From assembly GCA_023301025.1 (NCBI GenBank), contig JALZUR010000020.1:62001-126000 (forward strand): 64,000 nt of DNA. Reading direction: 5' to 3'. The position numbers and the translations under genes are program-made. The notes below the pieces were generated by a model. It saw only the letters and a program-made list of their open reading frames with translations. It searched no databases and was not told where the DNA came from. Of the stretch, positions 9,438 through 63,688 are shown one piece after another (within the stretch, counting starts at the first letter, position 1; each line of letters opens with the position of its first letter). This DNA comes from Bdellovibrionales bacterium (lineage in GTDB: Bacteria; Bdellovibrionota; Bdellovibrionia; Bdellovibrionales; UBA1609).

Positions 9438-9716
9438 ATGACTAAAACTCAACTCATTTTAAGGATAGCGGAAAAACATAATATTCCTAAATCTAGAGCT
9501 GAGGTAATCATAAACTCTATATTTGACTCTATGATCGACACTCTAGTTCATGATGGTCGAATTGAAATAAGAGGCTTTGGGTCTTTTGTTAACAGATTTT
9601 ACAAATCAAAACTTGGAAGAAACCCCAAGACTGGTGAAATCATTCAAATACCTGCAAAAAAACTACCATTTTTTAAAACTGGAAAAGATCTGAAATCAGC
9701 ACTTCAGGAAGATTAG
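9438..9716 (+). CDS. ihfB: DNA-bending protein of the HU/IHF family (IHF-beta-like)
   Basis: This 92-residue protein shows the family layout: a helical N-terminal dimerisation part, RIEIRGFGSF, and the DNA-inserting arm GRNPKTGE with its conserved Pro. It ends in FKTGKDLK. IRGFGSF and the GRNPKTG arm are closer to IHF-beta than to HU. It would bend DNA as a nucleoid protein. A separate alpha partner is not seen here, so it may act as a homodimer. Its stop overlaps the region where the following methyltransferase begins. Confidence 0.88.
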   Translation: MTKTQLILRIAEKHNIPKSRAEVIINSIFDSMIDTLVHDGRIEIRGFGSFVNRFYKSKLGRNPKTGEIIQIPAKKLPFFKTGKDLKSALQED

Positions 9717-9720
9717 TTTT

Positions 9721-10776
9721 ATCTTAAGTTCAAAGGACTTTTTAAATCTCTTACATACTGAAGCTCAGCTTAAATTTAAGAGCTGCTTCACATCTAAGAA
9801 CCTAAACAAACAAATCATTAAAGCCTCTGATCAGTATATCTTTGAAGAGAATACTTCTTTATGGAGTAAAGACTGGTTTAAAAACTCTTATTTAACATAT
9901 TTCCTGTTTACACAATCAGCCAGACTTTATTATGTTTTTAAAAAAGCATTACATTTAGATTTTAGCTCTTATAAAAATATAGTTGATTTTGGAAGTGGTC
10001 CGGGGTCAGCACAAAAAGTATTTGAAAAAATATTTAGTCAAAAAGACTTAAAAGCTTCTTGGATTAATATTGATTCTTCTAAAGAAGCTTTAGATATTTC
10101 TAAAAAATGGAATGATACTACAGAATTTAAAACTCAGTATGTAAATTCATCAACGCTGATCTATGCGAAATCTGATGAAGACCTATTAATCGCATCTTTT
10201 TCTCTTTGCGAAATAGAGCTAACAAAAGAAGTTATAAGCAAACTAAAAAGTTATAAAACTTTAATTTTACTTGAACCTGGTCAAAAAAAAGAATCAAAAA
10301 AATTAATTTATTTAAGAAATCTATTAACTGAAAAAGAAGAGTTTTTTGTACATGCACCTTGCACCCATCAAAACACATGCCCCATGACATTTGATAAAAG
10401 CTACTGGTGTCACGACAGTGTTTCTAAGCCGGAGTTCTTAAATTCTTTAGAACTTCCTTTTTCTAAAAGTAAGCTTAATGTATCTTATTTGATACTCTCT
10501 AAAGAAAGTTCAAAAAAATGTAGAACTTTTGGACGCGTTGTCGGAGACCAACGTATTGAAAAAGGCAAAACAAGGCTTTCAGTGTGCTTTGCAGAGGGTT
10601 TAGCGCAGGTTTCATGGTTAAAAAAAACTAAACTGAGCATCAAAATAAACCGAGGAGAACTTATAAAAGGGATCAAAAATTTTGATAAAAAAGGTCATGA
10701 AATTAGAATATCTGAACCACTACAAAAAATTTGTGAAGAGTCTTTATCTACAGATAATGACTCTTCTTGCAGTTAG
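9721..10776 (+). CDS. Rsm22-family (mitoribosome-type) rRNA methyltransferase-like protein with non-canonical start
   Basis: The frame is open from 9694 to 10776 and encodes about 351 residues, yet contains no ATG, GTG or TTG before 10384. The family signature spans that codon: the SAM-binding motif IVDFGSGPGSAQK (from 9979) and the Cys motif HAPCTHQNTCPM...YWCH (from about 10351), with a further Cys in KKCRTFGR. These four cysteines match the Fe-S motif of Rsm22/METTL17. Translation must therefore begin upstream of 9979. An AGGAAG ribosome site at 9706-9711 lies 9 nt before ATC 9721, my preferred start; ATT 9712, overlapping the ihf stop, is the alternative. The family is linked to small-subunit ribosome assembly. 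A start only at ATG 10384 would remove the SAM domain. Confidence 0.8.
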   Translation: MLSSKDFLNLLHTEAQLKFKSCFTSKNLNKQIIKASDQYIFEENTSLWSKDWFKNSYLTYFLFTQSARLYYVFKKALHLDFSSYKNIVDFGSGPGSAQKVFEKIFSQKDLKASWINIDSSKEALDISKKWNDTTEFKTQYVNSSTLIYAKSDEDLLIASFSLCEIELTKEVISKLKSYKTLILLEPGQKKESKKLIYLRNLLTEKEEFFVHAPCTHQNTCPMTFDKSYWCHDSVSKPEFLNSLELPFSKSKLNVSYLILSKESSKKCRTFGRVVGDQRIEKGKTRLSVCFAEGLAQVSWLKKTKLSIKINRGELIKGIKNFDKKGHEIRISEPLQKICEESLSTDNDSSCS

Positions 10777-11584
10777 TGTATATTCAGTATCATCATACTC
10801 TTTTACATCAAAAAATAGTTTTTTATGCAGCGAACTAAAAGACCGGCAAAAAGATTCGATCTCCACAAATTTTGATCACAATCCATTTGAGACAATTGAA
10901 ACACTCGTGAAAATTTCTCATGGGAACTTTGATGATGATCAAAAAAATCTTGCAATTGAAAGATCTTTTGATCTTGGCATGATCTTTCGTCAAACACAAA
11001 AACACCATGATAAGTCTAGTGCCTTCAAAACTTTATATATGAACAAAATAAAGAATGACTTTTATGGGCTATATTCAAGACTCTTCAAAGAACCAACAAA
11101 AACTTTAATGAGTAAGCATAAAGAGCAAATGAGTACTGAGGTTACGGAAGCACTTGATCAGGGCAGCATTATCTTTACAAACTTAAGCCGTTACAGATGC
11201 ACTTCTGTTGATAAAAGCTTACTGGGCTGCAGTGGCGGCTATTATGTGCTTTATAGCACTTTATCACCTGAGCTATCTTGCAACACTTCCGATTTAAAAG
11301 ATGCTTATCAAGTCAAATTTTTTCTGAGTTATAATAAAAAATATGGTTTTAAAATAGTAGATGTCGAAATGTCTGGAACACGAATTGTTCTTAAAACTTT
11401 TAAATACATCGATGAATTAAAATCTAGAGGGTACAATAGAGAAGCTTTAATATCTAGATTTAAAAGTTTAGAGCATGATTCAAAGAGCTTTGTTTTTCCA
11501 AGTAGGCTAACTCATTCAAGAGCTGTTATGGCTATAACTGAATCAGATAAATCTCGCCTTCCCTCTTCTTTAGAAGATTTATAA
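10697..11584 (+). CDS. Secreted protein of unknown function
   Basis: I recognise no family. The predicted protein of about 295 residues starts with a basic stretch (HYKKFVKS) and a hydrophobic core (IMTLLAVSVYSVSSYSF), compatible with a signal peptide or anchor. The mature part has several cysteines (FLCSEL, RYRCTS, LGCSGGYY, LSCNTS) that may form disulfides in the periplasm. The start is uncertain: ATG 10697 keeps the basic n-region, TTG 10682 is longer, and ATG 10757 gives the smallest overlap with the upstream gene but loses the positive charges. It overlaps the 3' end of the Rsm22 gene in another frame. Confidence 0.6.
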   Translation: MKLEYLNHYKKFVKSLYLQIMTLLAVSVYSVSSYSFTSKNSFLCSELKDRQKDSISTNFDHNPFETIETLVKISHGNFDDDQKNLAIERSFDLGMIFRQTQKHHDKSSAFKTLYMNKIKNDFYGLYSRLFKEPTKTLMSKHKEQMSTEVTEALDQGSIIFTNLSRYRCTSVDKSLLGCSGGYYVLYSTLSPELSCNTSDLKDAYQVKFFLSYNKKYGFKIVDVEMSGTRIVLKTFKYIDELKSRGYNREALISRFKSLEHDSKSFVFPSRLTHSRAVMAITESDKSRLPSSLEDL

Positions 11585-11607
11585 AATTTTAGAGTTAAAA
11601 ATTTAGG

Positions 11608-12279
11608 CTAAGCTATTGATCTAAATTTAGAAATTTCGCCTTTTTTTCGGTCATATATGTAGTCTAGACACTCTAAACTCTCAATTTTAGTTTTGCACTG
11701 GTGACCATCAGAGACCCAAACTGTCTCCAAACCCATCTTTTTACCAATTTCAATATCATGTCCTGTATCACCCACCATAATTCCTGATCCGTGTTTTCTA
11801 AATAGTTTAAGACCCCTTTCAAGCTTACATCCCGCACTATAATCAGTAGCCCCTGAAACTTCAAAAATATACTCTTCCAGATTATTTTTAGCTAACTGAT
11901 ACTCAAGCTCATTTTTATGTGCCGCAGATAAGATCACTTGCTTAACCCCAAACTCATAAAGCTCTTTTACAGTCTCAACAACACCTTTATATAAAATTTG
12001 TTTAGGCCTTGAGTTTTCATATTCAGCTACAAAGTGATGGGTCATCTCCTCAAACGTAATGCCGTACTTTTCAATGTTAAGACTTTTGTAGTAATCCATC
12101 ACAGGTATAGTAAAGTTTTTTAAATAAAAATCTTTAGTTATTGAAGGAGCATTTCTAGATGTCAGGAAGTCATTTGTAATCTCGACACAAATATCGACAT
12201 CATCAAGTAAGGTTCCATTCCAATCCCAGTATACACACGAGTAGCTTTTTAAATGGTTGATCAAATCTTTTGAATACAA
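11608..12279 (-). CDS. HAD-superfamily hydrolase, phosphoglycolate-phosphatase-like
   Basis: This Rossmann-like phosphohydrolase of about 223 residues has motif I as YWDWNGTLLDDV (nucleophile Asp, with Asn in place of the usual second Asp), motif II in VILSAAHK and motif IV in MVGDTGHDIEIGKK. The cap domain lies between motifs I and II. The start is probably TTG 12277-12279, because a perfect GGAGG (12288-12292) lies 8 nt upstream; a longer frame from TTG 12294 would bury that site inside the gene. The substrate is probably a small phosphate ester and is not identifiable. Confidence 0.8.
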   Translation of the reverse strand: MYSKDLINHLKSYSCVYWDWNGTLLDDVDICVEITNDFLTSRNAPSITKDFYLKNFTIPVMDYYKSLNIEKYGITFEEMTHHFVAEYENSRPKQILYKGVVETVKELYEFGVKQVILSAAHKNELEYQLAKNNLEEYIFEVSGATDYSAGCKLERGLKLFRKHGSGIMVGDTGHDIEIGKKMGLETVWVSDGHQCKTKIESLECLDYIYDRKKGEISKFRSIA

Positions 12280-12429
12280 AGTGGTCGCCTCCAAACTCTT
12301 AATTTTGATCCCATTTTTAACTTAAGAAATCAATGCTTCATCCCGATACGTTAAGATATGAGACAGATTAGGCACAAAACCAATATTTTACACATCAAGA
12401 CTTTTGTCTAATTTGCTTACTCGTACCTG

Positions 12430-12451
12430 GTGAGCTCAGGCTCATTTTTTT
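12430..12451 (+). terminator. Intrinsic terminator in the leader of the TSP1/VWA lipoprotein gene
   Basis: The hairpin TGAGC-TCAG-GCTCA is followed at once by seven T residues, the form of a rho-independent terminator. No plus-strand gene lies upstream (the neighbour at 11608-12279 runs the other way). It therefore sits in the untranslated leader of the gene starting at 12503. A promoter-like pair, TTTACA then TAATTT with 16-bp spacing, lies before it (about 12385-12415). This suggests attenuation or limits on read-through. Confidence 0.5.
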
Positions 12452-12502
12452 ACAATAATAGGTAGTATTATGCCTTTTACTCATCTTAAGGAGAGTAATT
12501 TT

Positions 12503-14248
12503 ATGAACAAAAAGAATAAACCCTACTTTTTTATCTACAGTTTAACTGTACTGTTTGGACTCTTATTTGCTTTAACCTCTTGTACAGAATCAGAATTTTC
12601 TTCTGCATCATGTAACGGCGGACCATGTAACGGTTCAGAATCTTTATCTTTTAACTGGGACAGCGCCGAATGGTCATCATGCTCACGATCTTGTGGAGGT
12701 GGTGTGAGAACCAGAGACGTTATGTGTCTTAACGCTAACAACATACAAGTTCCCGACTCCGAGTGTGTTGGTGTTAAACCAAACGAGCAAGAAAGCTGTA
12801 ACTCTCAAGCCTGTACAGAAGATTTTAGTTGGAATGTTGGCACATACAGCACATGTAATCAGCCTTGCGGAGGTTCACAATCAAGAACGGTAAGCTGTCA
12901 AAACAACTCTACTGGAGCATTTGTTGCAGATTCTTTTTGTTCGCAAACCAAACCTACGTCAACGCAAGCATGTGCAAGTACATGTCCCCCAGAAACTTTT
13001 GGTTGGGTACCAGGAAGTTACAATCAGGCCTGTGCATGTGGTGTTACTCAAATCACACGACCTGTAGAGTGTAGAAACTCAAACACTGGTGAAGTTGTAA
13101 GTGAGTCTTTATGTGATCAAAGCTTAAGACCATCAACAACTCTTACCTGCTCTCAAAATAACTGTAGCACCTACAATTGGGTTACAGGTGACTATTCGAC
13201 ATGCAGTAAAACATGTGGAGGAGGAACACAGTCAAGATCTTTAGGCTGCATTAGAAGCAGTGACTCAATCTATGTTGCTCACACTCTTTGTGATGCTAAC
13301 TCAAGACCAGAAACTCAAAGAGAATGTAACACGCAAGCTTGCGCACCAACCTGTACTCAAAGAGCATTTACAAATAATATATCGGCGGATGGAAATCAGG
13401 TGGATGTACTTTTAGTTATTGATGATTCAGGTTCTATGTATGCAGATTCATCACGACTAGCAACAAAACTTTCAGGCTTTGTAACTCAGCTTTCAAACTC
13501 TAATCTTGATTGGCAAATGTGTATTACAAGCACTGATATCGGATACTATGCAGGACGTCCTATTCAGTGGCAGGGGGCAAATTCTGGCCATATTCTTAGA
13601 AGAAACTCTGGGAATTTGAATTCTATTTTTATAGATACAATGAGATTTATTGGAGCCGGCTTTAGTGATGATGAACAAGGTATAAAAGCCATGAATTTAT
13701 CTGTAATGGGCAATGGCACTTCAAACTGTTACCGCCAGAATGCTGGTCTTTCTGTAATTGTGATTTCAGATGAAAATGAAAGAAGTGTTGGTGGAGATCG
13801 TAATTTAAGTTCTTACGACTATAAACCACTCGAACCTCTAAACAATCCTCAATCTTTTGTAGACACTGTAAGACGCGAGTTATCTCCAAATAAAAAACTT
13901 ACCGTAAACTCTATCGTTATTAAAGATAATGCTTGTCGCGACCTTCAAAGATCTCAAGGTGATAGAGGTTATGTGGGTTATAAATACATCGAGCTTTCAA
14001 ACCTTACAGGCGGCTCTGTATCAAGTATCTGTCAAAATAACTACAGTGTAGCACTTACAGATTCTTCTCAAGTGATTATAAATAACTTATCGTCACAAAC
14101 TCTTACGTGTGTTCCGACAGGTATGCCTCAAGTTCAAGTAAACGGTGTAAACTACAATCAAAATACAACACTAACCGGTAATCAGCTTATTTTTAACCCT
14201 GTAATAAACGGACCAGCAACGGTTAGCGGCAGTTACTGCTGCCCTTAA
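12503..14248 (+). CDS. Lipoprotein with four thrombospondin type-1 repeats and a VWA domain
   Basis: The protein of about 581 residues begins with a lipoprotein signal (FGLLFALTSC, Cys27). Four TSP1-like repeats follow (about 51-105, 109-160, 168-221, 226-280), each starting with a Trp and a Cys-rich core such as WSSCSRSCGGGVRTR. A VWA domain (about 300-535) has the MIDAS metal motif DDSGSM at 307-312. A small Cys-containing C-terminal domain resembles those of the two other VWA lipoproteins in this window. ATG 12503 is chosen because AAGGAG precedes it at 7-10 nt; ATG 12470 has none. Such proteins bind surface ligands, so an adhesin or matrix-binding role on the outer membrane is inferred. 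Confidence 0.85.
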   Translation: MNKKNKPYFFIYSLTVLFGLLFALTSCTESEFSSASCNGGPCNGSESLSFNWDSAEWSSCSRSCGGGVRTRDVMCLNANNIQVPDSECVGVKPNEQESCNSQACTEDFSWNVGTYSTCNQPCGGSQSRTVSCQNNSTGAFVADSFCSQTKPTSTQACASTCPPETFGWVPGSYNQACACGVTQITRPVECRNSNTGEVVSESLCDQSLRPSTTLTCSQNNCSTYNWVTGDYSTCSKTCGGGTQSRSLGCIRSSDSIYVAHTLCDANSRPETQRECNTQACAPTCTQRAFTNNISADGNQVDVLLVIDDSGSMYADSSRLATKLSGFVTQLSNSNLDWQMCITSTDIGYYAGRPIQWQGANSGHILRRNSGNLNSIFIDTMRFIGAGFSDDEQGIKAMNLSVMGNGTSNCYRQNAGLSVIVISDENERSVGGDRNLSSYDYKPLEPLNNPQSFVDTVRRELSPNKKLTVNSIVIKDNACRDLQRSQGDRGYVGYKYIELSNLTGGSVSSICQNNYSVALTDSSQVIINNLSSQTLTCVPTGMPQVQVNGVNYNQNTTLTGNQLIFNPVINGPATVSGSYCCP

Positions 14249-14278: not shown

Positions 14279-14740
14279 ATGAACAATAAACAAAAACAAC
14301 AACTAAAAGTAAGTTCCTTTTTAGTTCTATGTGTCTGCTTTTCATCACTTTTAGTTTTTCTAAGTGGAAGACATGAAAATAATAAGGGTCTGGATATAAC
14401 TGCAAAAGCTCTTAAGAGAATGGATATTCATGCCGCAAGATTGATTGAAACTAAGTTCCTTTCACCACAAATAGATTTAAACTCTAGAAGCTTAGCCTCA
14501 GTTCCAAATGGGTCTAAAACTGTATCAGAAAAATTAGATGGTAAAGTTGGGTTAGATCCATGGGGTCATCCTTTTCATTACTTTATAAAAAAAGACGCAC
14601 TCAATCCAAATAAAGGACAACTTATTCTATGGTCTATGGGTGAAGATCATAAGTTAAACACAAGTCTTGAAAATATAATGGATGATCACACAACGTTTAA
14701 AGGCGATGATTTTGGAAAAACTGTAGAATACTCTCTATAA
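14279..14740 (+). CDS. Membrane-anchored protein with pseudopilin-like C-terminal motif
   Basis: The 153-residue protein has one N-terminal membrane segment (about 12-30), then a periplasmic part. The segment VGLDPWGHPFHYFI followed by LILWSMGEDHK resembles the DPWGxPY...SxGxD signature at the end of type II secretion major pseudopilins (GspG). The N-terminal pilin methylation signature (G-F-T-L-x-E) is missing, so it is not a standard pilin. It follows the TSP1/VWA gene by 30 bp with its own GGAG site and probably shares its transcript, so a supporting role for that protein is possible. Confidence 0.55.
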   Translation: MNNKQKQQLKVSSFLVLCVCFSSLLVFLSGRHENNKGLDITAKALKRMDIHAARLIETKFLSPQIDLNSRSLASVPNGSKTVSEKLDGKVGLDPWGHPFHYFIKKDALNPNKGQLILWSMGEDHKLNTSLENIMDDHTTFKGDDFGKTVEYSL

Positions 14741-14780: not shown

Positions 14781-14812
14781 AAAAAAGCCAGTTTTAAAGC
14801 TGGCTTTTTTTA
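14781..14812. terminator. Bidirectional intrinsic terminator
   Basis: The stem AGCCAG/CTGGCT (14786-14791 and 14800-14805) is flanked by an A-run on the left and a T-run on the right. It can therefore end transcription from both the plus-strand gene at 14279 and the minus-strand typA gene. Confidence 0.85.
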
Positions 14813-30775: not shown

Positions 30776-31024
30776 CTACCTTAAAAAATGAACCGTTTTT
30801 TTGATTTCTTTATTCATCTCTCTTTTTTTCTCATAAAGAGGTAAGAAATCTTTATCACTTTTTTGTAAAACATAGTCTCCAGTGGGTGTTCTGATTTCAC
30901 CATCGATATCAGCTCCCTCCAAGTCTATAGTTTGTCTGTTTTTCTTTTTAGCAATAGCCGTACTTAAAAAAGAAGTAGAGAAAGAAATTACTAATATAAA
31001 TGAAATAAATAATTTACTTTTCAT
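30776..31024 (-). CDS. Small exported protein in the GltF position
   Basis: The 82-residue protein has a signal sequence or N-terminal anchor (about 1-25, FISFILVISFSTSFLSTAIA) and a short polar mature part (EGADIDGEIRTPTGDYVLQKS) with no domain I recognise. It overlaps the upstream TPR lipoprotein gene by 11 bp and is 6 bp from the FHA gene, so it is an integral operon member. In Myxococcus a small protein, GltF, occupies a comparable place; homology is not shown here. Confidence 0.6.
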   Translation of the reverse strand: MKSKLFISFILVISFSTSFLSTAIAKKKNRQTIDLEGADIDGEIRTPTGDYVLQKSDKDFLPLYEKKREMNKEIKKTVHFLR

Positions 31025-31988
31025 TCTTTTTTTCTCCTTCAGTTGCTTCCTTTAATCTCTGTTCGACATAATCTAATTGAACCTTTATTTTATTTTGATA
31101 ATTAGTGTCTATTGAGGCGATACTTCTAGACTTTTGTCCTGCATTTTTAGCTTTTATATAGTAAGATTTAGCTAGTTCCCATTTCTTTAAAAATTTATAA
31201 GCTTCAGCTATTTGAAAGTAATATGGGCCTTTGTCTGCAATATTTTTAGCAATAAATTTATAGTGCTTAATACTCTTCTCTTTTTGATCAGTATAAAAAA
31301 GTGAAGTCGCTAATGCGCCTCTAAAATCTAAATCTTTAAAATAAGTTGATGTGAGTTTATTATAATAAGATAATGCTTCTTTAAAGTTTCTATCACTGTA
31401 TTCAATGTCTCCAATAAATCTTAAGATAGTTTTATTATCAGAATTTTTCTTTCTAACTAAATTCATCAAATCAAAAGCTTGAGAATGTCTTTCTGTTTTC
31501 CAAAAAATTCTTGCTAACTGAAACTTTATAACTTCATTATCTGGAGATTTCTTTAAAGCAAGGTTACACATCCACTCAGCTCTTTGGAAATCCTTATATT
31601 TTTCAGATGCTACCAAACTCTTGTAGTATGCAGCCCATGGTGCTTTTAAATGATTATGTGAAAAGATATCTGCAATTTTTGATAAAGTAGTCCAGTCTTT
31701 GTCGTAAATACAACTCTGACCAGATTCTAAAAGGCTTCTCCATTTCTCTTTTTCAAAATTTACATACTTTTTACAATCAAAACGACCTCTCTTTTGAGTA
31801 ATCTTAATTCCTTTTGAGTAGCTCAAATCAATTTTTGATACATCTTTATCAGAAGTAGATTCATCTTTTTTAGTTTTTAAAAGCTTCTTATCTGAACTAG
31901 CAGGAGTTCTTTCATCAGATTTTTTTTCTGCTGAAGAACAAGAAGCTAAAATAAATAAAAGTACAAATAAATATTTAAAATTCTTCAT
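31014..31988 (-). CDS. gltE: TPR lipoprotein of the gliding cluster (GltE/AglT-like)
   Basis: The protein of about 324 residues has a lipobox (FVLLFILASC, Cys about 17), a low-complexity Lys/Ser linker and TPR repeats over most of its length (WMCNLALKKSPDNEVIKFQLARIFW; LRFIGDIEYSDRNFKEALSYYNKL; YYFQIAEAYKFLKKWELAKSYY). Myxococcus GltE is a TPR lipoprotein of the outer membrane required for gliding. ATG 31986-31988 overlaps the stop of the preceding gene (ATGA), supporting co-translation. Confidence 0.75.
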   Translation of the reverse strand: MKNFKYLFVLLFILASCSSAEKKSDERTPASSDKKLLKTKKDESTSDKDVSKIDLSYSKGIKITQKRGRFDCKKYVNFEKEKWRSLLESGQSCIYDKDWTTLSKIADIFSHNHLKAPWAAYYKSLVASEKYKDFQRAEWMCNLALKKSPDNEVIKFQLARIFWKTERHSQAFDLMNLVRKKNSDNKTILRFIGDIEYSDRNFKEALSYYNKLTSTYFKDLDFRGALATSLFYTDQKEKSIKHYKFIAKNIADKGPYYFQIAEAYKFLKKWELAKSYYIKAKNAGQKSRSIASIDTNYQNKIKVQLDYVEQRLKEATEGEKKNEK

Positions 31989-34924
31989 CAATTACCTCTT
32001 GGACCTGCAGAACTAGGAAGTCTTACTTTAGATTTATAAACAATTTTTTCATCTAAATTAACAACATCAAAAAGGGATTTAACTTTACCCATACTACCGT
32101 CTCTAAATTGAGCAGACTTAGAAACTTCTGTTGCTTGATTTAATACTTCAGCAGATTTTTCTTCAAATGGCATAATAATGTTTGCTAGCTCTTGCTTTAA
32201 TGCCTCAGTCTCTTCGGGACCAAATGCTGAAGGGGCCTTTAAAGTTTTTAAGTCACGCACATATGAATCATAAAGCTCAGATAAACCAATTAAAGAGCTA
32301 ATTATATACTTTTGATCATCTGAGGCTAAAGCTTTTTGAAATAGATTTTGGGCATAATCAAGAATTTGTGTTTTTGTCTGAATTCCAGAAACTATGGTAT
32401 TCATTGAGCGATTACTTATTCTAGCTTTTAAAAACTCTTCAGACTTAGACATGCCTCTATAGTAATAAAGTGGACCTTTTTGAGAGTCGTTTAACTTTGT
32501 TCTTCTAATCTCTTTATAAACAAAGTCATACAGATTTTTTTTATTTCCTTGTCTTTTAAGATATCCAATTTTACTATTTAATGCTCTTTGAGCAATATTT
32601 TTATTTGGATTATTTATAAACTCATTTAATTTTGCTTGATACCAACCAGAACCATCTAGACGAGTATCAACTGAGAAGAATGACGAAACAGCAATATCTT
32701 TAAAAATACCAGGTTTCAGCATAATTCCACTAAAGTTCTTAGCTGCTAACTCATAGTTTCCAGAAGAAAGCATGTACGAAGATGTTAGGTAAAACCATTT
32801 GTTAGCATTTTTAACATCTATCTTTTCTAAGATTTTAGTAACACCAACAGCTTTTTCAGGCTCAGCCATCATTTCATAAATCTCTACAGCTTTCACTAAG
32901 CCTGGTATTACATTTTTATGCTTAGGGTGGAGCTTATAAAAAGAAATATAATTTTCAGCTGTTTTATCATACTCTTTAAGGTTAAAATGAAGTGTAATTT
33001 TATTCCATCTGGCTTCATCAATATACTCAGAATTTTTATTTTCATTAATAAACTGATTGTATCGTTTAAGAGCTTGCCTATAATTTTTTGCTTTTTCTAA
33101 GACTTCAACTTCAGAAAAGAACGACTGTTCAAAAAGTTTTTGAAGACTTGCAGCTCTTTTAGGATCAGATTCTGTTTTCTTCCAACCTTTAGCAAATTTT
33201 TGTATTTCTACGTACTCTTTTTTAGAGTTTAGTATATCTAAGAATAAATCTTGAGACTTTTTTCCTTTTTCTTCTTTGTAAAACCTTTTACCTAAACTTA
33301 ACAAAAGTGGAGATGCTTGGTCATAATCTTTTTGTGTATAGTCATAAAGAGCTACTTTAAATGCAATTCCTAAGTACTCTTTTCCTTTTGGAAAATCAGT
33401 CATATATTTTTTAGACAATTCTTTAAAGCGTTCTTCATTTTTTTTATCTTTAAAAACTGTTTTAAATGCTTTATCAAAACTAAAAATAGCTGCATATCTT
33501 GCTTTGTGCTTTCTTTCTTTATCTTTAGTAGAATTACCTACTTTATCGTACTCTTTTGAAGCTTCAACAAGTTTACCTAAACCAAAAATATGTTCAGCAA
33601 AGAAAAATCTCATTTTACTATTTTCATCAGTTGCTGGTTTTTTGTAAAGATGAACCCTAAAGGCAATTTCTGCAACTTTTGCAAAAACAGGATTTTTCCT
33701 CTGTTTTTCATAAGAATTCAACCACTTAATTGCTAGGTTTTTTGAAATCTTATCTACTTCTTCTTGGCAAAAAGATTTATCAAGATCAGGATTTTTAGCT
33801 GTTGTTTTAAGGCATGTTTTATTAAATGACCAAAGAGCTTTTGCAGATTTTTTATACTTTAACTGTCTGTCATAGTTTTTCGCTAACTCTTTATAAAAAT
33901 GAGTTTCATCTTTATGATCTTTAAATTTACTAATTAAATTTAAAAGTATCGCTTCTTGATTGATATTTTTACCATGTCTTTCATAAATTTTAGAAAGTCT
34001 TCTTAACGATGGTACGGGATCCTTAGAACCAGCTAGATTTACAAAATAATTAACAGCATTTTCACCTTTTCTAACTGAACTGTAAAAAAGTGCCATATCA
34101 ATTAAAGCTTCGTTTCTTAAATCTAACCTTTGATCTAACCCTTGTCTTTCTACATTAACACCAAAAGCAATAACTTTTTCTAAATCAGAAATTGCCTGCT
34201 CAAATCCTTTTAAGTTGTAGTAAGACCATGCACTTTTATAAATTCCATAAGGATAGACTTTTGAAGTCTTATATTTCTTTACTCTTGAGTAGAAAGCTAA
34301 AGCTCTTTTAAATTTTACAGCATTAAAATTGATTTCACCAACAGCCATATAGGCATCAGGTACTAATTTTGATTTTGGCTTTTTCTTAAGTAAACTGATA
34401 AAAGTTTTTTCTGCAAGATCTTTTTCACCAATTTGTAGATGTGCGTAAGCTTTGTTAAACATTACCTGATCTAGTTCACGGTATTTTGGAAATTTTGTAT
34501 TAATCTTTCCGTATTCAGCAATGGCTTTTCTAATTATATTTTTTTCTTTAAGACTTTTAACTTCTGCTGGTAAAAAAGAAATAACCCCTTTTTCATCTTT
34601 GATTTGATTAACAAACCTTGCAGTTTTTGCTCTACTCATGTAAAGCTCGGCTAGCCTGTAGATTAAACCAGGCTCCATGCTAGTTCCTTTATACTTGGCT
34701 ATTAGAGTCTTTATCTGCTCCAACGCTCGCACCTCTGATTGAGATACTAAAACTTCTGTTTTTAAAAGTTTTTTCTGAGATGAACCATTTTCTAAATCTT
34801 TTTCACTAACCTTTAAAGATTCAATTTCATCATCTGGCTTAAGATTATCGCTTTGAGCAACAGCAGTGTTAGAAACAATAGCAAATGATGTTAATAGTAA
34901 AAGTATCTTTAAAAAATTGTTCAT
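31988..34924 (-). CDS. gltD: Large periplasmic TPR protein (GltD/AgmU-like)
   Basis: The protein of about 978 residues has a signal peptide (LKILLLLTSFAIVSNTAVA) and many TPR-type helical pairs along its length (IRKAIAEYGKINTKFPKYRELDQ; AYMAVGEINFNAVKFKRALAFY; YNLKGFEQAISDLEKV; WNKITLHFNLKEYDKTAENY). GltD (AgmU) of Myxococcus is a large periplasmic TPR protein of the gliding complex, and the order GltD-GltE-small-GltG is the same here. ATG 34922-34924 starts two bases after the stop of the ExbD gene, with GGTGG just upstream. Confidence 0.72.
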   Translation of the reverse strand: MNNFLKILLLLTSFAIVSNTAVAQSDNLKPDDEIESLKVSEKDLENGSSQKKLLKTEVLVSQSEVRALEQIKTLIAKYKGTSMEPGLIYRLAELYMSRAKTARFVNQIKDEKGVISFLPAEVKSLKEKNIIRKAIAEYGKINTKFPKYRELDQVMFNKAYAHLQIGEKDLAEKTFISLLKKKPKSKLVPDAYMAVGEINFNAVKFKRALAFYSRVKKYKTSKVYPYGIYKSAWSYYNLKGFEQAISDLEKVIAFGVNVERQGLDQRLDLRNEALIDMALFYSSVRKGENAVNYFVNLAGSKDPVPSLRRLSKIYERHGKNINQEAILLNLISKFKDHKDETHFYKELAKNYDRQLKYKKSAKALWSFNKTCLKTTAKNPDLDKSFCQEEVDKISKNLAIKWLNSYEKQRKNPVFAKVAEIAFRVHLYKKPATDENSKMRFFFAEHIFGLGKLVEASKEYDKVGNSTKDKERKHKARYAAIFSFDKAFKTVFKDKKNEERFKELSKKYMTDFPKGKEYLGIAFKVALYDYTQKDYDQASPLLLSLGKRFYKEEKGKKSQDLFLDILNSKKEYVEIQKFAKGWKKTESDPKRAASLQKLFEQSFFSEVEVLEKAKNYRQALKRYNQFINENKNSEYIDEARWNKITLHFNLKEYDKTAENYISFYKLHPKHKNVIPGLVKAVEIYEMMAEPEKAVGVTKILEKIDVKNANKWFYLTSSYMLSSGNYELAAKNFSGIMLKPGIFKDIAVSSFFSVDTRLDGSGWYQAKLNEFINNPNKNIAQRALNSKIGYLKRQGNKKNLYDFVYKEIRRTKLNDSQKGPLYYYRGMSKSEEFLKARISNRSMNTIVSGIQTKTQILDYAQNLFQKALASDDQKYIISSLIGLSELYDSYVRDLKTLKAPSAFGPEETEALKQELANIIMPFEEKSAEVLNQATEVSKSAQFRDGSMGKVKSLFDVVNLDEKIVYKSKVRLPSSAGPRGN

Positions 34925-34926
34925 GA

Positions 34927-35442
34927 TCAACCACCACCATCAAGCGCTGCAAGTCTTAAATCTCCGTAACCTGCCATAGTTGCTGTGTATAAAATTTTTC
35001 TCAATATTGAGTAGTCTAGCTCTTTATCAGCTTGCATTAAAAGCTTTCCATCAAATTTTATTTCTGGATTCTTTTTTGAAAGCTCTTCAATTTTCTTAGC
35101 TTCTTTGTTTAACTCTTTAAATAAGTTATCAATATAATCTTCATCAGTTTTAGAAATATCACTTTCTAAAATTTTTCCATTATCAATGGTTGCTACTTTT
35201 ATTTCGTTTACAAAAACACCTTTTTTAGAAACTAAAAGCAGTAAAGCCTCATTAGGCGTCGAAGCTGTTATTGATGCAGGTAAAACTAAACCATCAACAT
35301 TTTTTACTTCTAATGAAGATGTGTCATAACTTTTAAGTAAAAACACAATCATTATGGTAAACATGTCTACCATTGCGGTAAGCTGTAATGTAAAGCCCGC
35401 ATCTTTTTGTGATTTTCTAACAATATCGTGAATAATTGACAT
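34927..35442 (-). CDS. ExbD/TolR-family motor protein with conserved Asp (AglQ/AglS-type)
   Basis: The 171-residue protein has a short cytoplasmic N-terminus, one transmembrane helix (about 17-37) and a periplasmic ExbD domain. The helix reads LTAMVDMFTIMIVFLLKSY and keeps the Asp that relays protons in ExbD, TolR and MotB. It partners the channel protein at 36069-36722. It probably forms the working proton path together with the preceding ExbD paralogue. In Myxococcus two such proteins (AglQ, AglS) serve the gliding motor; which one this matches is not clear. Confidence 0.85.
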   Translation of the reverse strand: MSIIHDIVRKSQKDAGFTLQLTAMVDMFTIMIVFLLKSYDTSSLEVKNVDGLVLPASITASTPNEALLLLVSKKGVFVNEIKVATIDNGKILESDISKTDEDYIDNLFKELNKEAKKIEELSKKNPEIKFDGKLLMQADKELDYSILRKILYTATMAGYGDLRLAALDGGG

Positions 35443-35455
35443 TTATATACCTCAC

Positions 35456-36013
35456 TTAATCCGTAATATTACCAAAAGAGATATCTGGAAACAGAATATC
35501 TGTTTGAGTTGATTTTCCATCTTTGTCCACAAATGCTATCATTCTTGATGAATCTGTTTTTCTCATAACATCTAATAATTTTACGATATTATCGTATTTA
35601 GTCTTATCCCCAGGTGTAACTTTAGCACTCATTTGATTGGGGTATGATTTTTTTATAGCTATAATCTCATCTTTAATAACTGAAAGATTTAACTCTTTTT
35701 TAGCGTTAGATGTGATTGTTTTTGTTCTAACAACTTTTTTGTCCACTTGTGCTTGAACCACTACAGAGTTGTCATTTTTTACAAATATATCTAAATCAAA
35801 ATCAATTTTATTTTTATCTTCATCTTTTTTTTCTTGGACTTGATCTGATAAAACAGGAAGACTCGTTTCAAGCATTTTTAATGTTGCAAAGGATGTCTGT
35901 AAAAGTAAAACAGGAATCAACGTAACCATTAAAGCGAGTAGCGGCGATAAATCTACCTCAGTGCTCACTTCACCTTCTTGTTGATCTTCTATAAAGTCTT
36001 TTAAATTAAACAT
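35456..36013 (-). CDS. ExbD/TolR-family protein lacking the transmembrane Asp (AglQ/AglS-type)
   Basis: The 185-residue ExbD-like protein has one transmembrane helix (about 21-43) and a periplasmic domain with the typical end SRMIAFVDKDGKSTQTDILFPDISFG. Where ExbD proteins have P-L-I-D, this one reads LSPLLALMVTLIP, so the proton-carrying Asp is replaced by Ala, although an acidic residue (EVDLSP) precedes the helix. It may be a structural subunit in a heteromeric motor. GAGGAAG precedes ATG 36013. Confidence 0.82.
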   Translation of the reverse strand: MFNLKDFIEDQQEGEVSTEVDLSPLLALMVTLIPVLLLQTSFATLKMLETSLPVLSDQVQEKKDEDKNKIDFDLDIFVKNDNSVVVQAQVDKKVVRTKTITSNAKKELNLSVIKDEIIAIKKSYPNQMSAKVTPGDKTKYDNIVKLLDVMRKTDSSRMIAFVDKDGKSTQTDILFPDISFGNITD

Positions 36014-36068
36014 GTCTTCCTCATTTTAAATATAAATATATTAACTAAATTTTCTTACTTAATAACTT

Positions 36069-36722
36069 TTAAGCAGATTTTTTAGAACTATTACTGTCAT
36101 AAACACGGCCAGATAGTAAATCCATAATTTTTGATGATTGCTCTACACACTCATTCAAAATTTGATTCTGTTTGGCATGTAAAACTGAGTAAGCCATCAT
36201 AACAGGGATCGCTACAGTTAAACCTAAAGCTGTTGTGTTCATGGCAAGTGAAATACCCTGTGCTAAAAGCTCACCTTTTTTAGCTGGATCTGCATTCGCA
36301 ACCGCTTCAAAAGATAATATCAGTCCAGTAATTGTTCCTAAAAGACCAACTAATGTTACAACATTTGAAATCATAGCTAAATGACCTAATCTTTTTGTAA
36401 CTTTTGGCAGTATTTCTGAAAATGAAATTTCCATACCTTTTCTTATTGAATCTTCATCACGATCTGCTCTTTCAACAATAGCTTTCACAATGTGAGCTAC
36501 TGGTGCTTTTCTGTTTGCATCACTAAAAGTGATTGCTTCTTCAACTTGACCAGAAACAATCAGACTTCTTACTTGTGAGATAAACTCATCAGTCTTAATT
36601 GATAGATCAAAATATAGTGTTTTTGTTCTTTCGATCACCAAGCCCAGTGCTACTACTGCCATAACGACAATAACTAAACCGGCTATACCGCTTGATAAGA
36701 TCATTTCTATTATACCTTGCAT
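36069..36722 (-). CDS. aglR: MotA/TolQ/ExbB proton channel of the gliding motor (AglR-like)
   Basis: The protein of about 217 residues has three transmembrane segments (about 7-27, 110-135 and 155-180) and the family pattern VTLVGLLGTITGLILSFEAVA and GISLAMNTTALGLTVAIPVMMAYSVL. With the two ExbD proteins it would form the proton-driven stator that powers surface movement, as AglR does with AglQ and AglS. ATG 36720-36722 is chosen because AAGGAG lies 8 nt upstream; the longer TTG start at 36743 includes that site. Confidence 0.88.
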   Translation of the reverse strand: MQGIIEMILSSGIAGLVIVVMAVVALGLVIERTKTLYFDLSIKTDEFISQVRSLIVSGQVEEAITFSDANRKAPVAHIVKAIVERADRDEDSIRKGMEISFSEILPKVTKRLGHLAMISNVVTLVGLLGTITGLILSFEAVANADPAKKGELLAQGISLAMNTTALGLTVAIPVMMAYSVLHAKQNQILNECVEQSSKIMDLLSGRVYDSNSSKKSA

Positions 36723-36754
36723 GGTGATGCTCCTTTGCTCCAATGCTTTACTCG

Positions 36755-37699
36755 TTAATTGTTTAACTCGTATTTTATTTCTATAATGTCATTCGGCTTA
36801 GGTTTGTAATCACCTAAGAGCAGTAGGGTTTTTGTTTCACTTTTATACACCCAACCGTTTATTTCATCCTGAGGTACCTCTGATCCATTAAGGATTACAG
36901 AGATAGTCTCGACTAAAGGCCAATTTTCAAATATAAATTCGTTAAGTACCGACTGAAGTCTTATTGTAATCTGATTCATAAAAGAATCGAACTCTGTATA
37001 GCAAATGGTATCCACAACACCATTCGAATATTTTGAAAGTTCCATGTATCTGAGACCTGCACCTGAATAGTTTCCAAAAGTTCTACACCTAGAATCTGTT
37101 ATGTCTGTGACTCCAATAAAATTAGAAATCCAATTTTGCTTCTCGTTTGTATTTTCACCCTTAAGTTCATTTAAAAAATTATAATATTCAGAAACAGCAC
37201 CAAGACTTACATCTTGATCATCACTAATAAAAACAATCACCAAAAGAGCATCTTCTCTTAAAAAATTATCTTTATTTTTTTCTAAAGAACTCCTCATAGA
37301 AGAAAGCCCAACTTCAAAGTTGTTACCACTACCACCTAGTCTTACTAATGACTCAAGTTTCTTAACTGAATCTTCTGAATTAGGAGTTACGATTAAACCT
37401 GATTGGGCTAAATCTCCTTGTTCACCGCCTGAAGAGCCATCCATCGTAGTTGCAGCAACTCTGTAATCAGTTTTAGAGTCTATAAGTCCTTGATGAAATT
37501 GACTCATATATCCAGCGATTCTATTTTGATGTCTTTCCATAGTGGTTGAAGAGTTGTCTACAACCCACAAAATATCTACTTTGTTATTATAAGTGGCTAG
37601 AGCAGAGACCGATTGAAGTTTTGATACACTTTCAAAACTCTGTTCTGTACAAGCTATCAAAGATGCTGCAATAAAGAATACAGTTAGTTTTTTTCTCAT
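36755..37699 (-). CDS. cglB: CglB-like VWA-domain lipoprotein, first gene of the gliding operon
   Basis: The protein of about 314 residues has a signal with lipobox (FFIAASLIAC, Cys about 17), then a VWA domain (about 38-240) starting VDILWVVDNSSTTM, whose DxSxT MIDAS can bind a divalent ion. A small C-terminal domain follows (SVILNGSEVPQDEINGWVYK...). In Myxococcus CglB, an outer-membrane VWA lipoprotein, is the adhesin of gliding focal adhesions; location beside the motor genes suggests the same role. ATG 37697-37699 is preferred: GGGAGAGG lies 5 nt upstream, while the GTG at 37714 reads through that site. Confidence 0.7.
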   Translation of the reverse strand: MRKKLTVFFIAASLIACTEQSFESVSKLQSVSALATYNNKVDILWVVDNSSTTMERHQNRIAGYMSQFHQGLIDSKTDYRVAATTMDGSSGGEQGDLAQSGLIVTPNSEDSVKKLESLVRLGGSGNNFEVGLSSMRSSLEKNKDNFLREDALLVIVFISDDQDVSLGAVSEYYNFLNELKGENTNEKQNWISNFIGVTDITDSRCRTFGNYSGAGLRYMELSKYSNGVVDTICYTEFDSFMNQITIRLQSVLNEFIFENWPLVETISVILNGSEVPQDEINGWVYKSETKTLLLLGDYKPKPNDIIEIKYELNN

Positions 37700-37764
37700 A
37701 AAGCCCTCTCCCACCTTTCGTTAGGTAAGATCGGCAAATCAAAATGATACGGATATAGATATTC

Positions 37765-62557: not shown

Positions 62558-63688
62558 TTATTCAAAGCACTCATACTCGATAACAAAAGACTGACCGGCT
62601 GGTAAAGCTGGTGTAAAAGTCACACCATCTCTACTCTCATTCAATGTCCAACTGTACTCATCAGAAATTCTTACATCTAATGATTCTTCTCTATCTAAAA
62701 TACATCTGAATTTTTCTTCAGATTTAGTCTGGGTTATTACTGAGGCTATGTTACCAACTTCAGCAGAGTAGTCATTAGCACAGATACTTCCAACAACACC
62801 TTGAACTAGATTCCCATCAGCATAATCACCAAGTCTACGATCTGGATCAGCAAGGCTGAAATTATTAGGATTTGTCAAAGTACTGTAAAAGGTGCCAATT
62901 TTACCATCTATAAAAGCATTGCCGTTCTGAGAGTTTTGCTGATTCAAACATGTAACACCATCAGTAATTATAGCATGTGCACTTATAGTTGTATTGTTAC
63001 CAATATTTGACTTTACAGCTTGAATTAAATTTACTGGATAATCTAGAGCTTCAGGCATATAGTTCGGAGCTTGAAACTGACTTAACCCGTGTCCTCTTAC
63101 ATCTTCATCTGTAAGAAAAACAAAAGCCACATGACCATTTTCTCTAAAAAAGTTTTTCTTGTTAGCATTAACTGTAAGAAAAGCTGAGTAGATACCTCTT
63201 TCATCATCTGAAGGACAAACAGATGTATCATAGCCATTTCTCTCGCAATCAAGAGTCTCTTCTCTTCTAATTGTTTGCCAAAACTGATCTTCAATATTAT
63301 TTGAATCAGGAGTTAAATAATAAGATCCATCAGGAAATCTTAAAAGATTACCATTCTGTTCAGCTCTTAAACCATTTCCAAAATCACGTGGAGGATTTGA
63401 CTTAGATTCAACATCCATTGTGATAATACCTATTCTATAATCAACACCTGGTATATTTAAACCTTGTAAAAAATTATTGAAAGCCTGAGCCATTTTTCTT
63501 TGCTCTTCAGACATAGAACCTGAAGTATCAACAACAAATAGAATATCAACCTGCCCAACATTTACTTGAAAGGTGAACTTACTAAATTCCTGCTCACCAA
63601 ATTCGTTTTGAGTACACCCCATTAAAACAACCATCGCCAAACTCACTAGTAAAGCAATACTAAATTTTATGTTTAATCCCTTTTTCAT
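62558..63688 (-). CDS. VWA-domain lipoprotein (third family member)
   Basis: The 376-residue protein has a lipobox (SLAMVVLMGC, Cys about 25), then a VWA domain (about 45-320) with a clear MIDAS in VDILFVVDTSGSM. Inserts with Cys pairs follow (ETLDCERNGYDTSVC). The C-terminal part (SLDVRISDEYSW...FVIEYECF) matches the small end domain of the other two VWA lipoproteins here. It is probably a metal-dependent adhesin or ligand-binding protein on the outer membrane. AGGAG lies 7 nt before ATG 63688. Confidence 0.83.
   Translation of the reverse strand: MKKGLNIKFSIALLVSLAMVVLMGCTQNEFGEQEFSKFTFQVNVGQVDILFVVDTSGSMSEEQRKMAQAFNNFLQGLNIPGVDYRIGIITMDVESKSNPPRDFGNGLRAEQNGNLLRFPDGSYYLTPDSNNIEDQFWQTIRREETLDCERNGYDTSVCPSDDERGIYSAFLTVNANKKNFFRENGHVAFVFLTDEDVRGHGLSQFQAPNYMPEALDYPVNLIQAVKSNIGNNTTISAHAIITDGVTCLNQQNSQNGNAFIDGKIGTFYSTLTNPNNFSLADPDRRLGDYADGNLVQGVVGSICANDYSAEVGNIASVITQTKSEEKFRCILDREESLDVRISDEYSWTLNESRDGVTFTPALPAGQSFVIEYECFE

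Follow-up and report, generated by a model that had tools for sequence, protein, structure and literature searches.

A 581-residue open reading frame on the forward strand (12503-14248 of the window, the whole 64,000-nucleotide stretch of Bdellovibrionales DNA analysed here) joins four thrombospondin type-1 (TSP1) repeats to a C-terminal VWA domain, and we refer to its product as TSP1-VWA (Table 1). The ATG at 12503 is supported by an AAGGAG 9 nt upstream, a site of a kind missing from the longer frame that begins at 12470. The lipobox cysteine, Cys27, is invariant in nine orthologues, and the product is a lipid-anchored protein that, by analogy with characterised adhesins, is probably exposed at the surface. 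The elements listed in the first-pass annotation of this DNA, namely a lipobox, four TSP1-like repeats and a VWA domain with an intact MIDAS, were all confirmed (Cys27, PF19030 and DDSGS, respectively). A partner gene encoding 153 residues starts 30 nt downstream, and the two genes likely form an operon. The same partner immediately follows the TSP1-VWA gene in L036, L033/L054, L055, L058 and L059, which represent two families, and the other recurrent neighbour, in some genomes, is a HAD-hydrolase gene.

Table 1. Features of the TSP1-VWA unit and two further VWA lipoprotein genes (window coordinates).
Feature	Position	Strand	Basis
Signal peptide and lipobox (ALTS-Cys27), lipid anchor	12503..12583	+	sequence
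C-x-x-x-x-F after the lipobox (Cys27...Phe32), candidate sorting/export signal	12581..12598	+	lipoprotein counts
TSP1 repeat 1	12653..12814	+	PF19030
TSP1 repeat 2	12824..12985	+	PF19030
TSP1 repeat 3, weakest	13004..13165	+	PF19030, 26.1 bits, above cut-off
TSP1 repeat 4, strongest	13178..13342	+	PF19030, 59.1 bits
VWA / integrin-beta-I-like head	13397..14089	+	NF052240, fold, alignment
MIDAS loop 1, DDSGS (residues 307-311)	13421..13435	+	D, S, S invariant in 20 family members
MIDAS loop 3 Ser-Asp-Glu, opening the SDE[DN]ERSVGG signature	13766..13774	+	sequence conservation
Small beta domain, C-terminal part (N-terminal strand just before VWA)	14090..14245	+	predicted strands
Partner gene, single-TM, weakly GspG-like C-terminal domain	14279..14740	+	PF08334, E 0.0037, below cut-off
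Terminator-like hairpin and T run, closing the two-gene unit	14787..14811	+	direct reading; missing from terminator scan
CglB-like VWA lipoprotein of the candidate gliding locus, outside the TSP1-VWA unit	36755..37714	-	
Bd0875-type MIDAS lipoprotein, outside the TSP1-VWA unit	62558..63688	-	NF052240, E 4e-53, 180.8 bits

The Pfam search proposed in the first-pass annotation matched the protein to TSP1_ADAMTS (PF19030; E 1.1e-38 and 131.7 bits over the whole protein, against a gathering cut-off of 23.8) at residues ~51-104, 108-161, 168-221 and 226-280. All four repeats exceed this cut-off in a genome-wide profile search, in which no TSP1 other than these repeats was found in the 2.03 Mb source genome. 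Chance resemblance of a cysteine-rich sequence is ruled out by the Pfam E-value (1e-38) and by shuffling: the repeat region scores 209.7 bits, while the best of 1000 composition-preserving shuffles scores -8.9, using a model partly trained on these same repeats, the Pfam match being the independent result. Each repeat contains exactly six cysteines in the group-1 order (W..C..C....C....C....C..C, with CSxxCGGG). Of the two hallmarks by which the TSP1 assignment was to stand or fall, the disulfide pattern is thus present in its six-Cys group-1 form, whereas all that remains of the Trp-Arg ladder is one conserved Trp, a second aromatic and an Arg that is mostly conserved (22 of 29 repeats); the full three-layer WxxWxxW ladder of the classic repeats of thrombospondin-1 and TRAP is missing, and no WxxW occurs in any TSP1-VWA repeat. 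The repeats therefore share family (PF19030) and six-Cys group-1 spacing with the type 1 repeats of ADAMTS and thrombospondin-1, but differ from them in the reduced ladder, the lack of WxxW and the bacterial lipoprotein context. Among solved structures the nearest sequences are repeats of thrombospondin-1 and THSD7A, and Foldseek matches the predicted repeats to the THSD7A TSP1 didomain (8oxr, E 1.9e-7, 27% identity). The lack of WxxW argues against eukaryote-style C-mannosylation; a search for Dpy19 gave no match, and as the controls were equally unmatched this does not imply absence. Two CxxS/TCxxG O-fucosylation-type motifs are present in the protein.

No Pfam VWA model matches TSP1-VWA, and we assign the head to this fold because it matches NF052240, because homologues match PF00092, and because of its predicted structure. 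The AlphaFold model, for which nine orthologues served as input, is of moderate confidence (mean pLDDT 77) and contains four strand-rich repeats followed by a VWA fold, so that the structure prediction called for in the first-pass annotation, together with the 8oxr match, bears out the proposed domain content. The predicted VWA sits between a preceding strand and a following small beta domain (strands at residues 285-293, 543-547, 554-558, 561-565 and 572-580), a layout that has also been described for Bd0875 (PMC11003981). The loop-2 Thr/Asp and loop-3 Ser-Asp-Glu of the MIDAS are kept in all or nearly all relatives, the loop-3 Asp being invariant in 20 aligned relatives, and the metal-site residues are kept though overall identity is only 36-48%. 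Foldseek ranks integrin beta headpieces first (E ~1e-9 to 1e-7, with low TM-scores over the whole protein), and in one member of the VWA family Pfam recognises the integrin-beta-like VWA of SibA-E. In both TSP1-VWA and the integrin beta headpiece (betaI plus hybrid domain) the VWA is inserted in a beta domain and loop 1 conforms to DxSxSMxxD; the loop-1 DDSxSMxxD of our protein is one that we take to resemble the integrin beta motif. TSP1-VWA differs from integrin beta in that identity is ~12% and there is neither an alpha partner nor PSI/EGF legs.

NF052240 describes a 'MIDAS family adhesin', and its match to TSP1-VWA (E 6.5e-31, 107.8 bits) falls far below the cut-off of 700. The founder of this family, Bd0875, is a lipobox MIDAS adhesin located at the invasion junction, on the surface of the predator; it is required for normal prey invasion, and its MIDAS residue D66 is needed for function (PMC11003981). 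Membership of the Bd0875 equivalog itself is ruled out for TSP1-VWA by score and by the missing cap: the Bd0875 orthologue of B. bacteriovorus kdesi (L133) scores 704.4 bits against the same model and has an insertion at the site of the Bd0875-specific cap (aa 143-176), where residues 371-391 of TSP1-VWA run directly into SDDEQG. The head nonetheless belongs to the Bdellovibrio MIDAS family adhesin superfamily as a divergent representative, with the lipobox, DxSxS VWA, small C-terminal beta domain and homology throughout the head by which the broader Bdellovibrionota MIDAS lipoproteins are recognised. As in Bd0875, Bd1483, Bd0767 and Bd3132, the MIDAS VWA is embedded in a small beta domain that N- and C-terminal segments make up together (PMC11003981). 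A lipobox is common to Bd0875, Bd1483 and TSP1-VWA, and a C-x-x-x-x-F start was read in L133, but where TSP1-VWA has four TSP1 repeats, Bd0875 and Bd1483 have no stalk. The nearest relatives in B. bacteriovorus kdesi are stalk-less lipoproteins, L134 (39% identity) and L135 (37%), with Bd0875 at 26%; the first of these, an orthologue (L134:1342-2667), has an extra amphipathic-looking C-terminal segment (...EEGFFARILSFFRNLF).

The survey of Bdellovibrionota suggested at the outset found the TSP1-VWA architecture in 11 of the 141 genomes of the order, distributed over three families and with 1, 2 or 4 repeats. Full-length orthologues occur in the source's own family (G000, G002, G010, G011, G015, G024 and G034) and in others (G051, G058, G085 and G112), the named carriers being Bdellovibrionales or Bdellovibrionaceae metagenome-assembled genomes. 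The head itself is far more widespread: at E <= 1e-30, 131/141 genomes of the order contain a relative of it. Within the close orthologue group, defined at about 363 bits or more and covering about 59 genomes, 11 orthologues carry TSP1, 14 belong to frames of 569-805 residues and about 34 have a short linker; nine of the 14 long frames were read and contain 2-4 repeats of ~100 residues. TSP1 is present in all seven genomes of the source's own family that have a close orthologue. Stalk types cluster on the tree, with 4 changes compared with 19 in shuffles (0 of 200 shuffles as low); the hypothesis that the TSP1 form arose once is not rejected (p-AU 0.48). Since orthologous heads are found with no stalk, with TSP1 or with ~100-residue repeats, TSP1 is one of several interchangeable spacers beneath them. 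Identity between orthologues is 40-50% at TSP1 positions, compared with 44% in the head; the stalk is thus about as conserved as the head and may do more than space. In G010 the whole TSP1-VWA gene lies within an exact 1528-bp direct duplicate (L034:6885-8412 and 11151-12678, 4.27 kb apart), which may be a recent duplication, the result of gene conversion or an assembly artefact.

A phenylalanine stands at +6 from the lipid-bearing cysteine in 25/25 predicted VWA-family lipoproteins of the surrounding loci, often as C-x-x-V-K-F, and in 4/7 TSP1-only lipoproteins as against 4/62 other predicted lipoproteins (p 0.002, from small numbers); two more distant VWA lipoproteins, from a random sample of another genome, lack it. 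Because the VWA proteins share descent, only the TSP1-only comparison hints at a sorting signal, and we regard Phe +6 as a candidate surface-sorting tag. Loci noted to carry it include window 12581-12598, L039, L046, L149 and L154.

The combination of a MIDAS VWA with TSP1 (TSR) repeats in one ectodomain is that of the apicomplexan proteins TRAP, MIC2 and CTRP (PMC9019593). The TRAP family pairs extracellular MIDAS VWA and TSRs with a transmembrane helix and an acidic tail containing Trp, and most apicomplexan TSRs belong to group 2 (PMC9019593). Compared with these, the chain of TSP1-VWA has the reverse polarity, with an N-terminal lipid anchor and a C-terminal VWA, its repeats are of group 1, its head is integrin-beta-like, and a transmembrane helix, a rhomboid site and an acidic Trp tail are all missing; no second hydrophobic helix was found outside the VWA fold, and the chain stops with the small beta domain (...GSYCCP). 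The reversed order, group-1 repeats and missing tail rule out homology to TRAP. Sequence comparison thus identifies the likeness as convergence in layout, not family membership, and the independent assembly envisaged in the first-pass annotation is upheld by the order, by the repeat group and by a head drawn from a bacterial MIDAS family. In the layout that we infer, the VWA would be the membrane-distal head and the TSRs would lie nearer the membrane in both, so that opposite chain polarities lead to the same outer head and inner stalk. In Plasmodium CTRP, removal of VWA domains reduces motility and removal of the TSRs does not (PMC9019593), which is consistent with a spacer role for the stalk. 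A TRAP/MIC2 analogy for Bdellovibrio MIDAS adhesins has already been published, with thrombospondin repeats unmentioned there (PMC11003981), and a full-text search for thrombospondin together with Bdellovibrio in the open-licence literature, outside which most subscription papers fall, returned no relevant paper. The TSP1-VWA form makes this published analogy between Bd0875 and TRAP/MIC2 testable.

We therefore favour, with a probability of roughly two in three (0.68), a reading in which TSP1-VWA is a surface lipoprotein MIDAS adhesin with a force-sensitive head, which the TSP1 stalk extends and places under load. The N-terminal lipid would anchor the protein in the outer membrane, the four repeats would form a thin, disulfide-stiffened stalk, and the integrin-beta-like VWA in its small beta domain would be the membrane-distal head, holding its ligand by way of a divalent metal ion in the MIDAS; this ligand could be on prey, substrate or kin. 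Tension between the lipid anchor and the surface so bound would be transmitted by the stalk and small domain to the VWA, promoting its tight-binding state. Surface exposure, metal-dependent ligand binding and force gating are suggested here by analogy with integrins, TRAP and Bd0875, and the lipoprotein could instead face the periplasm. In that case it might be an envelope assembly or secretion factor, in which the VWA, alongside the GspG-like inner-membrane protein encoded next to it, would act on a partner within the envelope. The adjacency of that gene in two families, and a true type II secretin and GspG encoded elsewhere in the source genome, speak for such a role, which we nevertheless consider very unlikely: the partner gene is not beside the TSP1-VWA gene in 6/11 genomes, and stalk exchange is easier to reconcile with an exposed head than with one in the periplasm. 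The partner itself cannot be taken for GspG, its sequence likeness being weak and its model giving no fold match among solved structures; no prepilin motif was found in it.

An exposed adhesin could also serve gliding, as the first-pass annotation had proposed. It would then couple an Agl/Glt-type motor to the substratum, as a bacterial equivalent of TRAP/MIC2. TSP1-VWA has the same two extracellular domains as TRAP, whose VWA is needed for gliding (PMC9019593, PMC7351488), and the window does contain a candidate gliding motor locus (31014-37714), in which a VWA lipoprotein gene is clustered with genes for TolQ/ExbB-like, TPR and two ExbD/TolR-like proteins. The CglB-like VWA lipoprotein that the earlier annotation had noted in this genome is indeed there; it has an orthologue in B. 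bacteriovorus and gives the motor locus a VWA lipoprotein of its own, whereas 17 kb separate that locus from the TSP1-VWA gene, which is part of an unrelated unit of two genes, with GspG-like and sometimes HAD-hydrolase neighbours. Gene context thus rules out membership of the gliding locus, and with no transmembrane or cytoplasmic tail for motor contact we hold a gliding role to be highly improbable. A phosphonate-type ABC transporter flanks the cluster and is syntenic in B. bacteriovorus. Myxococcus CglB and CglD are, like TSP1-VWA, VWA lipoproteins, from related delta-type bacteria; the CglB model (NF033757, cut-off 200) does not match TSP1-VWA at E 1, the CglD model (NF033765, cut-off 400) matches weakly (E 4e-5, 21.6 bits), and no TSP1 was found on the matched strand of the examined Myxococcota loci. 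That TSP1-VWA does the job of Bd0875 in prey invasion is suggested by its distant homology and by a lineage related to predators, and is again improbable given the low score, the missing cap and the stalk-less paralogues that are its nearest B. bacteriovorus relatives. The same genome also encodes a closer Bd0875 match at 62558-63688, whose best match is the kdesi Bd0875 orthologue (32% identity over 382 columns) and which has a shortened cap-like insertion, making it the better candidate invasion adhesin. Prey attachment by TSP1-VWA is possible but does not follow, because it lacks the Bd0875 cap and because deletion of three cap-less MIDAS proteins in B. bacteriovorus left invasion normal (PMC11003981).

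A bolder form of the surface-adhesin reading, which we think rather doubtful, is that TSP1-VWA is a convergent, TRAP-like force-gated adhesin, one version of a modular platform whose stalks differ in length and type from species to species to suit different prey or surfaces, and that it is directed outwards by the C-x-x-x-x-F tag shared among these lipoproteins. In relatives of invasive predators, the domain pair used by apicomplexan parasites for attachment and invasion has been joined separately. Forms of the same head that lack a stalk, or that sit on 1, 2 or 4 TSP1 repeats or on repeats of another kind, make up a natural series in which the contribution of the stalk can be probed.

The view that TSP1 is uncommon in bacteria does not hold especially well within this clade, where any TSP1 is found in 42/141 genomes of the order and 39/291 of the phylum (0/14 control genomes); much of it sits in other proteins, and the 42/141 is not the frequency of the TSP1-VWA architecture. 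A protein of ~920 residues that resembles a lipoprotein occurs in many genomes of genus g38 and was read in three (L043:8394-11150, L044:8926-11691 and L045:8634-11465); it has one TSP1 and, by eye, PKD-like repeats and an apparent C-terminal Hint (intein-like) domain. Pilin-like proteins with a GFSLIE-type N-terminal helix and C-terminal TSP1 repeats occur at L042:6941-8722, 9566-11044 and 12427-14010, L150:497-2125, L151:125-1606 and L152:541-1890; these are possible minor-pilin adhesins. TSP1 repeats are also fused to what by eye resemble a cytochrome-type lipoprotein (L132:1036-2562, reverse strand) and a glycoside-hydrolase-like protein (L130:1-1719), fusions that point to wide recruitment of TSP1 in Bdellovibrionota.
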